Part shown: positions 1 through 8,251 of the stretch, piece by piece
How the letters are laid out: each line of letters starts with the position of its first letter
How positions within the stretch are numbered: position 1 is the stretch's first letter
From: Candidatus Altimarinota bacterium
GTDB taxonomy: Bacteria > Patescibacteriota > Gracilibacteria > GCA-2401425 > JAJOLG01
Length of the DNA stretch: 10,485 nucleotides
NCBI GenBank assembly: GCA_021129445.1
Contig: JAJOLG010000042.1
Coordinates: forward strand, 1 to 10,485
Direction: 5' to 3'
Made by a program: the position numbers and the translations under genes
The notes under the pieces: generated by a model
Seen by the model: only the letters and a program-made list of their open reading frames with translations
Database searches by the model: none
What the model was told of the DNA's origin: nothing

Positions 1-95
1 TTTTTAAACAATACTTGAACATCTTTTGGAATTTTTTCAAGCAATTCTTTTGATATTTTTTTCTTAAAAGTTCATCATTTTTTATGTTTTCACAT
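1..95 (-). CDS. Unknown protein, N-terminal fragment (runs off window)
   Basis: An ATG at 93-95 opens a frame that stays open to the window edge if TGA is read as glycine. The visible residues begin MGKHKKGGTFKKKISKEL and continue as a lysine-rich stretch ending near VQVLF; three of the first eight residues are UGA-encoded glycines. It starts 10 bp after the stop codon of the duplicated dnaG tail at 106-108, on the same strand, so it was probably the original gene downstream of dnaG before the ATPase gene arrived. No family can be named from about 31 residues. That it is a real gene is inferred from the open frame, the strand and the spacing. Confidence 0.5.
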
Positions 96-100
96 ATTTT

Positions 101-192
101 ATTTTTTATTTTTTTAAAATTTTATTTTTCAACATTAGAAGACTTTGGAAGTCTCCAATTTTTTCTTTGTAATTCAAGTTTTTTTTCAAAAA
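101..192 (-). repeat. Direct repeat copy A: duplicated dnaG 3' end
   Basis: This segment aligns without gaps to 1465-1556 at an offset of 1364 bp, with only about four mismatches over the best ~75 bp (117-191). Copy B is the true end of dnaG. Copy A lies beyond the ATPase gene and supplies the last codons and stop (135-137) of that ATPase in a different frame. Similarity may continue weakly to about 214 with a small indel. Confidence 0.9.
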
Positions 193-195
193 ATA
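106..195 (-). pseudogene. Remnant C-terminal tail of dnaG (duplicate)
   Basis: Read in the dnaG frame, copy A still encodes the dnaG tail and ends at the equivalent TAA (106-108). It reads LKKNLNYKEKIGDFQ and so on, against LKKNLNSKEKIGEFQ in the intact gene. The visible differences are conservative or few (Ser to Tyr, Glu to Asp, Ile to Met), and the frame and stop are preserved. It has no start and no upstream primase sequence, so it is not expressed as primase. It overlaps the end of the ATPase gene in another frame. Interpretation: either the displaced original dnaG terminus or a target-site duplicate. Confidence 0.75.
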
Positions 196-1376
196 GTCAA
201 ACTTTTTTCTAAATCTATACATTCTAAACTAAAATCTCAATATTTTTCTAAAAATAATGAATATTTTTTAATATTAAACTTTTTTAAATTAAATTTAACT
301 TCAAAAGCTTTTTTGTCCTTCTCTAAAATAAAATCAATCTCATTTTTATTTTGAGTTCTCCAAAATTTTATTTCATCATAATTATACTTTCCTAAAAAAT
401 TTTTGTAAACAAGATTTTCTAACAAACTTCATTTATCAACCCTTAAATTAAAGTTATCAAAATTTCAGGCAAAATAATTTCTCAATCATAAATCAAAAAA
501 ATACACTTTTGGCATTTTTGTAAACTCCTTTTTAATATTTGTATGAAATGGCTTTATGGCTGAAATATGAAATGATTTTCTCATTATATAAATATAATTT
601 TCAACAGTAGAAACTGACAAATTAACCATATTTGCAATTTCATTCATATTAAGCAAATTTCAAATCTGACTTGCTAAAATTTTTAAAATATAAAAATATT
701 TTTCCCTAAATTCAATTTTAGCCTCGAAAATATCTTTTTGAATATATGAATCTGCAATTTCTTTCAAATATTTTATTTTTTCATCAAAAGAATCCATTAA
801 AACAAGCTCTGGATACGATCAATAATTTATAAACTCATAATACAAATTAAATAATTCTGTTTTATACAAAAGCGGAATATCTTTTTTTCACAGAAACTCT
901 TTATACTCTATTTTATCTTTAAAATCTAAAAATTCATTAAATGATAAAGTATAAATATAAAAAATCTTTTTTCTTCATGCTAAACTATCTTTAAATTTTT
1001 TATCAATATAAAAAGCAGAACTTCAAGTCACAATTAATTTTATCTTATCGGAAAAATTATCATACAACAATTTCAAAAAATTCGATGGATTTTTTAAATA
1101 CTGAATTTCATCAATAAAAACATAAGTTTTTTCCTTGTTATTTCAAATTAATTGAAAAATATTTTCTGGATCATTATCTAAAATATCTCTAAAATTATTT
1201 TTTTCTAAATTCAAAAATTCAGTTTTCTTTCACTGTTTTTCTAAACTGTCTCTTATTTTTTTTAAGACAGTAGTTTTTCAAACTTGCCTTGCTCAAAGCA
1301 ATAATAAAACTTTATCATTCTCTAAATTTTTATTTATCTCGCCTTCTATTTCTCTGGAATATTTTTTATTCTCCAT
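135..1376 (-). CDS. AAA-family ATPase with C-terminal DUF4143 domain
   Basis: A 413-residue predicted P-loop ATPase. The N-terminal AAA domain has Walker A GARQVGKTT (residues 28-36), with both key glycines encoded by UGA, Walker B YVFIDEIQ (85-92), sensor-1 TGSS (117-120), and the signature LAGRKKIF followed by LSFNEFL. A winged-helix-like segment follows (GNLLNMNEIANMVNLSVSTV), then the DUF4143 nuclease-like part with KMPKVYFFDLGLRN, KNEIDFI and FEVKF. Members of this family are common in archaea and CPR genomes; their physiological role is poorly defined. The ATG at 1374-1376 is chosen because the family usually begins a few tens of residues before Walker A. The last ~19 codons lie in the duplicated dnaG tail, read in another frame, so the C-terminus appears to have been created at the junction. 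Its own promoter and repeated boxes lie upstream. Because it already uses UGA for glycine, the donor probably had the same code. Confidence 0.92.
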
Positions 1377-1393
1377 AATATTGGATTTTTATC

Positions 1394-1460
1394 AGATATT
1401 TTTATTGCACTACACTAAAAATATCTAATATTATTAAAATGTCAAACTAAAAATATCTAA
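1394..1460 (-). promoter_or_regulatory. Promoter and repeated operator-like boxes upstream of the ATPase gene
   Basis: On the minus strand a perfect -35 TTGACA (1440-1445) is followed after 16 bp by TATTTT (1418-1423), 41 bp before the ATPase ATG. Three copies of an 11-bp box, AGATATTTTTA, surround it. Two are direct repeats (1416-1426 and 1448-1458, each within a 15-bp identical unit at 1414-1428 and 1446-1460). One is inverted (1394-1404) and forms a perfect 11-bp inverted repeat with 1416-1426 across an 11-nt spacer. The boxes overlap the -10, sit next to the -35, and lie downstream of the -10, as expected for a repressor operator. Regulation itself is inferred. Confidence 0.55.
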
Positions 1461-1464
1461 AAAA

Positions 1465-1556
1465 ATATTTTATTTTTTTAAAATTTTATTTTTCAAAATT
1501 AAAAGACTTTGGAATTCTCCAATTTTTTCTTTGGAATTCAAGTTTTTTTTCAAAAA
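1465..1556 (-). repeat. Direct repeat copy B: 3' end of intact dnaG
   Basis: Partner of the repeat at 101-192. It contains the last ~28 codons and TAA (1470-1472) of dnaG. The two copies bracket about 1.27 kb holding only the ATPase gene and its promoter region. Confidence 0.9.
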
Positions 1557-3239
1557 TTTTTCTTTTTTTTCTAAATTTTTTAAATTTATCGATTTTATCA
1601 AAGATAAAGCCTCTAATTTCAATTTTTCAAAATTATCAAAATCATGCTGAGACTCAATTTGCAATTTAATTTGTAAAAATTTTTTTTCTTCTTCAAAAAA
1701 TTTTTCTTCATCAAAAATATTTTTTTCAAGCTCTTCAAAAATTTTCTCAAAAATTTTAAAATTTTTTTCTGATTTTTCAAAAAAATCAAGCAATAAATTT
1801 TCTTTTACAACTGGCAATAATTTTTTTTCAAATAAAATCAATCAAATTAAATAATTTTCAGGTAAAAAAATATTTTTTTGATCAGAAATTTCTTCATTTT
1901 TTCTCACAATTTTTTTATTTTTTTTATCAAAATTTTGAAAATCATCAAACAAAAAATTTTCTGAAACTCAAAGCAAAAACGAAATTTTTTTCAAATATTC
2001 CTGTTTTTCCAAATTATTTTTTGAAGAAGAAATAATTTGAAAAATCTCCTTTTGAAAAAGTTTTTTATCCTCAATTTTTTTTAAATCATATTTTTTTTGT
2101 AAAGCAAAAAACAAAAATTCCACGATATCCAAAGGGTTTTCAATCGCTTTTTTGAAAAAATCAGTTCAATTTTTCACATCATTTTCAATCGCTTCATCCG
2201 GATCTTTTCAATTTAACATTTTTACAATTTTAATATTTGTATCTCAATCATTCAAAACCTCAAAAGCCCTTTTTATCGCTTCAATTCAAGCTAAATCAGA
2301 ATCAAAACACAAATAAAAATTTTCGGTGTACCTCTTCAAAATTTTAACATGTTTTTCATTAAAAGCTGTCCCCAAAGATGCAACAGCATTATCAAAACCG
2401 GCTCTGTGACAAGCAATTGTATCCATGTATCACTCAGTCAAAATCACAATTTTTTTCTTACGAATTGCATCTTTTGCAAAATTCAAACCATATAAATTCA
2501 TCGATTTATCAAAAACTGACGACTCCGAAGAATTTAAATATTTTGCAGAATTTTCTTCTCAACGAAAAATTCTCCCTCAAAATCAAATGGTTTTTCACAA
2601 TAAATTTTTTATTGGAAAAATAATTCTTCACTTAAATCTGTCGTAAACACCGCTTCAATGCTCGTTTTTCAAGATTACTCAAGTTTTAAAAATGTCTTTT
2701 TCCTCAAATCACAGTTTTCTCAAATGCGAAAAAATCAGACTTGAATCATCTGGTGCAAGTCAAATTTCAAATTTTTTTCAAATTTCTGTTCTTAAAAATT
2801 TTCAATCCTTCTCAAAAAAAAGTTTTCTTCAAACTAAATATTTTTTTGCTAAATTTGAAATTTTCGCATCATCATCAAGTTTTTCTTGATAGAAATTATT
2901 TATTTCTTCTAAAATTTCAATTTGAGAAGTTTTTTCTTCTGATTTTTTAAAATCTTTTTTTTGCAAAATTACACCAGTTTTCGTCGCCAAAACCTCCAAA
3001 GCCTCTTTAAATTCAAGATTTTCAGTGTATTCCAAAAATTTAAAAATATCTCCTCATTTTTGACATTGTCAAAAACACCGACAAATCCCAGAATCCGGAG
3101 ATACAATGAAAGATGGGGTTTTTTCTTGATGCCACGGACAAAGCCCCTTGAAGTTTTTTCAAGTTTTTTTCAATTGCACATACTCTCAAACAAGCTCTTC
3201 AATTGGTAGCCTTTGTTTTATTTCTTTGATTTCGTTCAA
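1470..3239 (-). CDS. dnaG: DNA primase DnaG
   Basis: A 589-residue primase, which makes RNA primers at the replication fork; about the usual family length. Visible parts: an N-terminal CHC2 zinc finger with Cys34 and His37 (LCPWHQEKTPSF) and Cys55/Cys59 (CFGQCQKGGDIF); then the Toprim core with EGYMD (residues 269-273, Gly by UGA), ASLGTAF, and the metal-binding acidic pair in LCFDSDLAG; then a Lys/Glu/Phe-rich C-terminal region that would contact the helicase. The start is the TTG at 3237-3239 (first residues NEIKEIKQRLPIEELV, as in other primases); no in-frame ATG lies nearby upstream. The last zinc pair is Cys-x3-Cys rather than the usual Cys-x2-Cys. The final ~28 codons are duplicated at 106-192. 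It follows an MscS-like gene on the same strand after 134 bp. Confidence 0.96.
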
Positions 3240-3256
3240 TTTTTTAATTTTTTTTA

Positions 3257-3290
3257 TTACAAATAATTTGTAAAACTTTTTTTTACAGCA
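3257..3290 (-). promoter_or_regulatory. Overlapping inverted repeats just upstream of dnaG
   Basis: TTACAAA (3257-3263) and TTTGTAA (3267-3273) form a perfect 7-bp inverted repeat with a 3-nt loop, ending 18 bp from the dnaG TTG. The adjoining GTAAAA and TTTTAC pair in an alternative hairpin. It could be an operator or a 5'-UTR structure. In sequence this AT-rich such short repeats also arise by chance. No convincing promoter was identified. Confidence 0.3.
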
Positions 3291-3373
3291 CAAGAATTTT
3301 TAATATTTATTTTCAACTTTGTTCGAAAATATTTTAATTATTCTCAATTTTATTCAAAAATAATCAAAAACCA

Positions 3374-6958: not shown

Positions 6959-8062
6959 TTATCCTATATCTACTTCAACCCTCTTAATAAACTCCAAATC
7001 CTGAAAATACCCCGCCGCTCAAATCATCGCTCAATTATCTGTGCAATAAACCATTTTCTTCGGCCACAAAATCTCCAAATCGGTTTTTTCTCAAAACATT
7101 TCTCTCAATCTTAAATTCGCAGAAACTCATCAAGCCAAATGAATCTGCTTTGCTCAAAATTTTTCAACCGCTTTCAAAGTCTTTTTCATCAAAATATCAC
7201 AAATCGCTTCTTGAAAGGATGCTGCCAAATCGCATCTTAATTGTTCTCAAATTTCTCAAAAAAACTCAAAATCTTTTCAATTTTTTACCAAAAATTTTTC
7301 AGAATTTTCAGAAAAATTTTCTCACTCATTAAAAAAATTTTTTTTACCATCATAAAAAATTTTTCCTTCAAAAATATTTTGAATTTTGTACAAAACTGAA
7401 GTTTTCAAGCCAGAAAATGAAAAATTAAAATCTCAAGATTGAACCATTCACCTCGGAAAATCAAATGCTTTTTTATCTCATTTTTCTGCTAATTCTCAAA
7501 CCTCTTTTCAAGCAGGATATCACAAACCCAGCATTCTTCAACACTTATCAAAAGCCTCCCCTGCCGAATCGTCCAAACTTTCTCAAATCAATTCAATTTC
7601 ATTAAAATTTTTCATCAAATGAATTTCATTGTGTCATCAGGAAACTGTTAAAACAATTGCAGGAAACTTGATTTCATCAGGATTTCTTTCCAGTAAATTT
7701 GAAAAAATATGTCAATAAATATGATTTACTCACAAAAGTGGAATTTTGTAAAGATACGAAAGTGTATTCGCAAAAGTAATTCAAGCCATCAAACTTCAAA
7801 TCAAACCAGGTCAATTTGTCACCGCAATTGCATCAATTTCCTCAATTTTTTTTCAAGATTTTTTCAAAGCCTCATTAAAAACCGAGTTTAAAAAATCAAC
7901 TTGCGCCCTCGCCGCCTCTTCTGGAATTATTCATTTTGTGGCTTGATGAAGTGCGATTGAAGTCGCGATTTCCAGCGATAAAACCTCTGTTCAATTGCAA
8001 ATTATTGCAATTGAAGTTTCGTCGCAAGAAGTTTCGATAGATAGAATTGTGTTTTTTTTCAT
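6959..8062 (-). CDS. tsaD: tRNA N6-adenosine threonylcarbamoyltransferase TsaD
   Basis: A 367-residue TsaD (Kae1/YgjD family), which transfers threonylcarbamoyl to A37 of ANN-decoding tRNAs with TsaB and TsaE to make t6A. Motifs in order: LSIETSCDETSIAI (7-20), GIIPEEAAR, TNGPGLIGSLMAG (82-94), metal ligands His114 and His118 (HIYGH), VSGGHNEI, DDSAGEAFDK, FSFSGLKTS, ASFQEAI, HLAGGVSANLRLR, and CTDNGAMIGAAGY with the third metal ligand Asp342. Between GLKTS and ASFQEA the protein carries a Phe/Lys/Asn/Glu-rich stretch of roughly 50 residues, longer than in most relatives. The ATG at 8060-8062 gives the usual N-terminus. It begins 6 bp after the RelB-like gene, so the two are probably cotranscribed. 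Many motif glycines are UGA. Confidence 0.97.
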
Positions 8063-8068
8063 TTAAAT

Positions 8069-8251
8069 TTAATAAATTTCATCATTCAAATTCATTTCAA
8101 TTTTTTTCTCTCTCACAAACTTCTTTAAAAACATATTAACAACAGATGTCAAATTAATTCGCATTTCATTTGCAATCTTTGAGGCCTCTTCTTTTATAGC
8201 TTTTTCAATTCTAAAATTGACATTTATTTTTTGAGAAATTGCTACTGACAT
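8069..8251 (-). CDS. RelB/DinJ-like ribbon-helix-helix antitoxin, no adjacent toxin
   Basis: A 60-residue protein starting MSVAISQKINVNFRIEKAI and containing KEEASKIANEMRINLTSVVNMFLKKFV. The short strand (INVNFRI) followed by two helices matches the ribbon-helix-helix DNA-binding fold of RelB/DinJ antitoxins, which repress their own operon and neutralise a RelE/YafQ-type ribonuclease. It contains no UGA codons, so it would be open under either code. The C-terminal tail after the fold is very short (about 12 residues: EKKIEMNLNDEIY), and no toxin gene follows: tsaD begins after 6 bp. It may be an orphan antitoxin, a regulator of tsaD, or partner of a toxin elsewhere. An inverted repeat upstream could be its operator. 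Confidence 0.82.
   Translation of the reverse strand: MSVAISQKINVNFRIEKAIKEEASKIANEMRINLTSVVNMFLKKFVREKKIEMNLNDEIY

Follow-up and report, generated by a model that had tools for sequence, protein, structure and literature searches.

A duplicated dnaG tail around a DUF4143 ATPase gene suggests a candidate single-gene mobile element in Patescibacteria

The dnaG locus and the gene behind it

The window, i.e., the whole stretch of DNA analyzed, is an entire contig of 10,485 bp (G000:C25) from a genome that uses genetic code 25, with TGA read as glycine. On its minus strand, the DNA primase gene dnaG is followed by an ATPase gene with its leader, by a second copy of the dnaG tail and by the start of a further gene (Table 1).

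Table 1. Positions of the features at the dnaG locus (window coordinates)
Feature	Position	Strand	Remarks
dnaG (DNA primase)	1470..3293	-	Pfam Zn_ribbon_DnaG, DNAG_N, Toprim, DnaB_bind; code 25; start codon provisional
Repeat copy joined to dnaG	1465..1556	-	last 28 codons with TAA, plus 5 nt beyond
Far repeat copy (putative relic tail, severed from dnaG by the insert)	101..192	-	in frame, same TAA
Putatively inserted interval between the copies	193..1464	.	1272 bp; one gene and its leader
AAA_14 + DUF4143 ATPase ORF	135..1376	-	413 aa, code 25; PADLOC PDC-S01
Putative read-through end of the ATPase ORF within the relic	135..181	-	DNA homology with L151 ends at ~181; low pLDDT
ATPase leader	1377..1464	-	TTGACA at 1440-1445
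Leader repeat AGATATTTTTAGT	1446-1458 and 1414-1426	-
Partial inverted match AAAAATATCT	1394-1403	-
Next gene, start only (MGKHKKGG..., table 25)	1..95	-	cut by contig end

The original prediction held that the last ~90 bp of dnaG recur 1364 bp away, and a repeat search in the window recovered exactly this pair as a two-copy family with 87 of 92 bases identical (95%) at a spacing of 1364, the differing bases lying at positions 103, 133, 138, 151, and 170. The pair reaches a Smith-Waterman score of 159, against 49 for the next-best match within the window; among 300 random 10.5-kb sequences of the same nearest-neighbour composition, none exceeded 56. Read in code 25, the copy joined to dnaG gives FLKKNLNSKEKIGEFQSLLILKNKILKK and the far copy FLKKNLNYKEKIGDFQSLLMLKNKILKK, each ending at the stop; the dnaG frame and the same TAA, claimed for one copy, are thus found in both, and a gapped alignment stretches the far copy to about position 214. 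When the repeat was searched against the whole genome (77 contigs), it matched itself with 273 bits and the other copy with 150 bits. No third copy was found in these contigs, and because all remaining matches stay at or below 45.5 bits, we reject the reading as a common dispersed repeat, which had been named as a possible objection to the prediction.

Only 100 bp of sequence lie past the far copy. That this copy sits 101 bp from a contig end, in a genome assembled in 77 contigs, would suit an assembly artefact, or else a chance similarity in A/T-rich DNA. Yet the score is far above random, the two copies differ at five bases, and many independent cases exist (see below), one of them in a single-contig genome (G070); we regard this explanation as extremely improbable. 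Contig C27, the only sigma-70 region 2 match, was considered as the source of the truncated next gene and rejected, as it neither overlaps the window end nor carries rpoD. Elsewhere in the window, a 60-aa ORF (8069-8251, minus strand) resembles by eye a RelB/DinJ-type antitoxin, without an obvious toxin gene, and adjoins a tsaD-like gene (6959-8062).

The interval between the copies had been predicted to hold a single AAA/DUF4143 ATPase gene. This is borne out, with the refinement that the ORF extends 58 bp into the far copy. Pfam assigns the protein to PF13173 (106.7 bits, cut-off 27, E 1e-30) and PF13635 (114.2 bits, cut-off 28.1, E 6e-33), and the PADLOC model PDC-S01 matches it with 323.6 bits (E 4e-97). 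Besides these AAA-type and DUF4143 domains and a weak HTH, the Pfam search of the protein returned nothing, and LAGLIDADG and GIY-YIG were absent; the insert carries no Pfam transposase domain and, with the ATPase as the sole gene between the copies, no tyrosine or serine integrase. The protein displays a Walker A motif (G28xR30xxG33K34T35), a Walker B motif (D89E90), an HTH region, and PD-(D/E)XK-like residues (E320, E346xD348, E359xK361). In alignment A1, G28, R30, G33, K34, D89, E90, E320, and E346 are invariant, and D348, E359, and K361 nearly so. This C-terminal E...ExD...ExK pattern fits the PD-(D/E)XK superfamily, in which PMC12988326 also places the C-terminal domain of PDC-S01; the nuclease-like domain is putative. 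The ExK is missing from some repeat-bracketed members of the family (e.g., L185, LQVS), which makes a cutting role of the motif doubtful in those members.

A structure model built from an alignment with viral relatives has a pLDDT of 80.6 (39 for a single-sequence model), with residues 391-413 under 50. Among the structural matches listed, the best are the archaeal AAA+ ATPases 2qen (PABY2304; Z 18.0) and 2fna (SSO1545; Z 17.6), over 270 residues at 4.0 A, a likeness of the modeled ATPase part in structure alone; no PD-(D/E)XK fold appears among the top matches listed for this search. DNA homology with the gene of the closest relative, L151 (protein 60% identical), stops within the far copy, and together with the low pLDDT of the terminal residues this suggests that the last residues of the window ATPase are read-through into the relic.

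The leader contains short direct and partially inverted repeats. Inverted repeats (score at least 10) are enriched in the leaders of the family (31% vs 11%); they overlap promoter-like sequence, in the window at 1394-1458, and their arms reach 23 bp in L281. Perhaps they serve as an operator or as a binding site of the ATPase's own HTH.

No empty dnaG site was found in relatives, the nearest dnaG in the genomes searched having about 42% protein identity. In the only genome of the same order (G001), dnaG is 37% identical, and a scan of a contig collection gave distant dnaG only. The ATPase has 23 matches in G001, some of which are fragments, and the dnaG of G001 contains no internal TGA, so that ATPase copy number and genetic code differ sharply between two genomes of one order.

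Bracketing repeats across the DUF4143 family

As no near relative of the dnaG site was available, we tested the DUF4143 ATPase family instead. The DUF4143 genes sampled came from the class to which the window belongs (first half) and from other genomes of the phylum (second half). A gene was counted as bracketed if its flanks (300 bp on each side plus 120 bp inside) shared a direct repeat with a Smith-Waterman score of at least 70 and a length of at most 250, and other ORFs of 250-550 codons from the same loci served as controls. Bracketing repeats were found for 26 of the 161 DUF4143 ATPase genes in Patescibacteria and for 2 of the 381 control ORFs (odds ratio 36), with p=9e-13, a value to be taken loosely because the geometry was narrowed once the first results were in and genes within a genome are not fully independent. 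Each half of the survey holds alone (16/91 vs 1/251 and 10/70 vs 1/130), and an initial, wider search geometry led to the same result. The repeats are about 40-155 bp long and enclose intervals of 1.1-1.6 kb, which the ATPase gene occupies in the cases listed. Of 49 Fic genes from this phylum, 1 was bracketed, and of 28 homologues from IMG/VR, 1 was bracketed at threshold; none of 16 plasmid homologues from other phyla was bracketed. Genomes reached through dnaG relatives of other phyla contained few DUF4143 genes.

Some individual arrangements stand out. Direct repeats also flank two solitary Fic genes (L306:5149-6075, 67/68; L378:1111-2142, 56/56), and genes other than DUF4143 ATPases are therefore capable of the same arrangement. 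In an IMG/VR contig that ends within the second repeat copy (L431:2406-4361), 140 nt near the end of a 119-aa gene are repeated behind a DUF4143 ATPase (138/140). Another IMG/VR sequence (L442:2614-4084, 3300038974_000267) has a DUF4143 ATPase with a 35/36 repeat in a phage tail module, between the chaperone and tape-measure genes; its close relatives L448 and L451 have one similar stretch and no ATPase.

These counts bear on the idea that the ATPase is a passenger, e.g., a genuine defence gene, brought in by host processes (transformation, break repair, or illegitimate recombination, for example) that would also produce the duplication. In favor of it, the family is listed by PADLOC as a defence candidate, described in PMC12988326 as common and not yet validated; two Fic genes are bracketed alike, and plasmid homologues lack bracketing. 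The strong excess over both the control ORFs of these loci and the Fic genes of the phylum, however, calls for something specific to the DUF4143 family, and we consider a mere passenger quite unlikely.

Where the duplicated sequence can be identified, it is often the tail or head of the neighboring gene. Tails belong to dnaG, prfA, galE, nadA, PEPCK, dnaX, a MerR-like gene, and an intein-domain gene (the PEPCK case is not among the 26, probably because an incorrect code was applied to its locus), and heads to a PIG-L deacetylase and a GT2 glycosyltransferase. Other repeats comprise part of a DciA-like gene close to its end, a promoter region that reaches as far as the start codon, and the 3' 54 nt of a tRNA-Arg (CCG), the tRNA itself being intact. 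About nine repeats contain terminator-like hairpins and constitute weaker evidence; since such hairpins are real in some repeats and absent from the coding ones, they do not represent a common target structure. Two loci (L283 and L181) each carry a stack of two ATPases at a single gene, whose end is present three times, the farther copy in L283 being more decayed; the stacked insertions of L181 sit in the single-contig genome G070.

The 3' ends of genes and of tRNAs are classic integration sites, and their use here would also be expected from remnants of ordinary integrase-driven elements, with att sites at gene 3' ends, that have lost their integrase. Against this, the ATPase gene takes up the intervals of 1.1-1.6 kb in the cases listed, 5' ends serve as sites as well, and a separate loss of the integrase every time is implausible, which makes this origin very unlikely.

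Occupied and empty sites, and the origin of the duplications

The order protease-prfA-X-dnaA is kept across three genomes of one genus. G106 has prfA, an ATPase, and a relic tail, and G198 the same gene order with one tail and no ATPase. In G199, a DUF4143 ATPase lies on the opposite strand directly behind prfA (L341:2611-3834); being 29% identical to that of G106, it appears to be an independent arrival at the same prfA end. Beyond it, only a 22-bp, chance-level match to the prfA tail was found, which we left uncounted. For galE, the relatives were too diverged for use as an empty site, and for L283 the genomes of the same family gave no useful match.

Among the closest ATPase pairs (60-84% identical), 10 of 11 have no neighbor gene in common. 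The DNA shared by such pairs begins about 55-68 bp before the ATG in most cases and ends near the stop codon (in one pair it begins at -163 and includes the repeat), and in L150 the conserved unit starts at the inner repeat edge. These limits point to a unit made of a short leader and one ORF. No common terminal sequence was seen when the element edges were compared by eye.

The reading we favor, and hold to be moderately probable, is that the insert is a mobile element consisting of a single gene, which on insertion creates a long duplication of its target. The element, a PDC-S01 ATPase/nuclease-like gene with a leader of roughly 60-90 bp, would have entered the last codons of a once uninterrupted dnaG and left the 92-bp direct duplication of its tail. 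The encoded protein may open and nick DNA, cutting the two strands about 40-150 nt apart; the element would then join the break, and fill-in would double the segment between the cuts, the ATPase's own activity presumably driving the process. With so long a duplication, a gene hit within about 100 bp of its end or start would be left with one complete copy and a non-functional relic, and the survivors in gene-dense Patescibacteria would be those at gene ends. At the level of sequence, this reading is supported by the duplication, the single-gene content, the bracketing, the occupied and empty prfA sites, the differing neighborhoods of close relatives, and the stacking; that the protein inserts its own gene is a proposal. 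Counted against mobility are the members without ExK, the lack of common ends, the plasmid homologues (0/16), the low rate among IMG/VR homologues (1/28), the hairpin repeats, and the Fic cases.

An alternative source for one of the copies is a homing-like replacement, in which the element brings a captured donor gene end, and recombination within the shared gene gives the resident gene this foreign end together with the ATPase, so that the native end becomes the relic. The prfA copies of G106 suggest such an event: 16 synonymous changes separate them, against 2 nonsynonymous ones that fall in a single codon, and over the last 48 nt of prfA the relic matches G199 (37 vs 31) and G197 (35 vs 27) better than the joined copy does, although G198 does not discriminate (34 vs 35). 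The same contrast of native relic and foreign end is seen in fungal cases (PMC3630166). There is thus some support for a carried-in joined copy at prfA, where the remaining copy looks native. Seven coding repeats taken together show 55 changes, 23 of them nonsynonymous (a fraction of about 0.8 would be expected at random); without prfA, however, the pool comes to 21 of 37, and the window pair to 3 nonsynonymous and 1 synonymous, so that the remaining coding pairs, that of dnaG included, would fit a target-derived copy with a decaying relic. Furthermore, close ATPases lie at unrelated genes, where a carried end cannot account for the new site and the duplication must be derived from the target. 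Overall, we favor target duplication over import, which is unlikely as the general explanation, and over the still less likely passenger; mixtures are possible, and import could act when an element spreads at the same site between species. Of the original prediction, the entry of an element without integrase at a core gene's 3' end, which stays intact, is supported and general for the family. The restoring copy that it supposed to be carried in may, at dnaG, equally have come from the target.

By extension, it is conceivable, and we advance it tentatively, that DUF4143/PDC-S01 genes form a self-mobile class in which the AAA+ and nuclease-like domains bring about the insertion of the gene that encodes them, with long and variable target duplications and no known recombinase, the "defence" gene being selfish at least in Patescibacteria. 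According to PMC12988326, PDC-S01 ranks fourth in frequency among the "defences" of prokaryotes, its copies number in the tens of thousands, and most such candidates still await validation. If these genes spread by themselves, their abundance and clustering need not signal selection by viruses, and reduced genomes would be credited with too many defences. Such spread would also mean a recombinase-free route by which a single gene colonizes gene ends, those of replication and translation genes included, and the decay of the duplicated ends would give relative ages and point to empty sites.

Comparison with known systems

Integrative elements at gene 3' ends, such as phage 21 and e14 in icd or islands at tRNA genes, carry an integrase and cargo. 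The arrangement described here resembles them in that the end of the target gene is duplicated, its function is kept, and both tRNA and coding 3' ends serve as sites; it differs in having one gene and no recombinase, and in using 5' ends as well. Unlike DDE insertion sequences, the window insert has no transposase domain, and the duplications are not short, and unlike classical homing systems, it has neither a LAGLIDADG nor a GIY-YIG endonuclease. PADLOC PDC-S01 (AAA ATPase plus PD-(D/E)XK, a single-gene phage-defence candidate) is the same protein family as the window ATPase. It is known as a putative defence gene by association, and the available portions of PMC12988326 do not describe bracketing by duplicated gene ends; our literature search on the mobility of the DUF4143/PDC-S01 family found no publication.

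The mobile ORF elements of fungal mitochondria (Allomyces atp6; Glomus atp6, atp9, cox2, and nad3) consist of endonuclease ORFs for which import of the joined gene end is documented (PMC3630166). Here, by contrast, a bacterial AAA+ ATPase with a PD-(D/E)XK-like domain is involved, gene heads and a tRNA are used, import is suggested at most for prfA, and the synonymous-rich divergence of the fungal copies is matched in prfA only. The likeness lies in the layout, a free-standing ORF directly behind a core gene whose C-terminal end is present twice, as joined copy and as relic.
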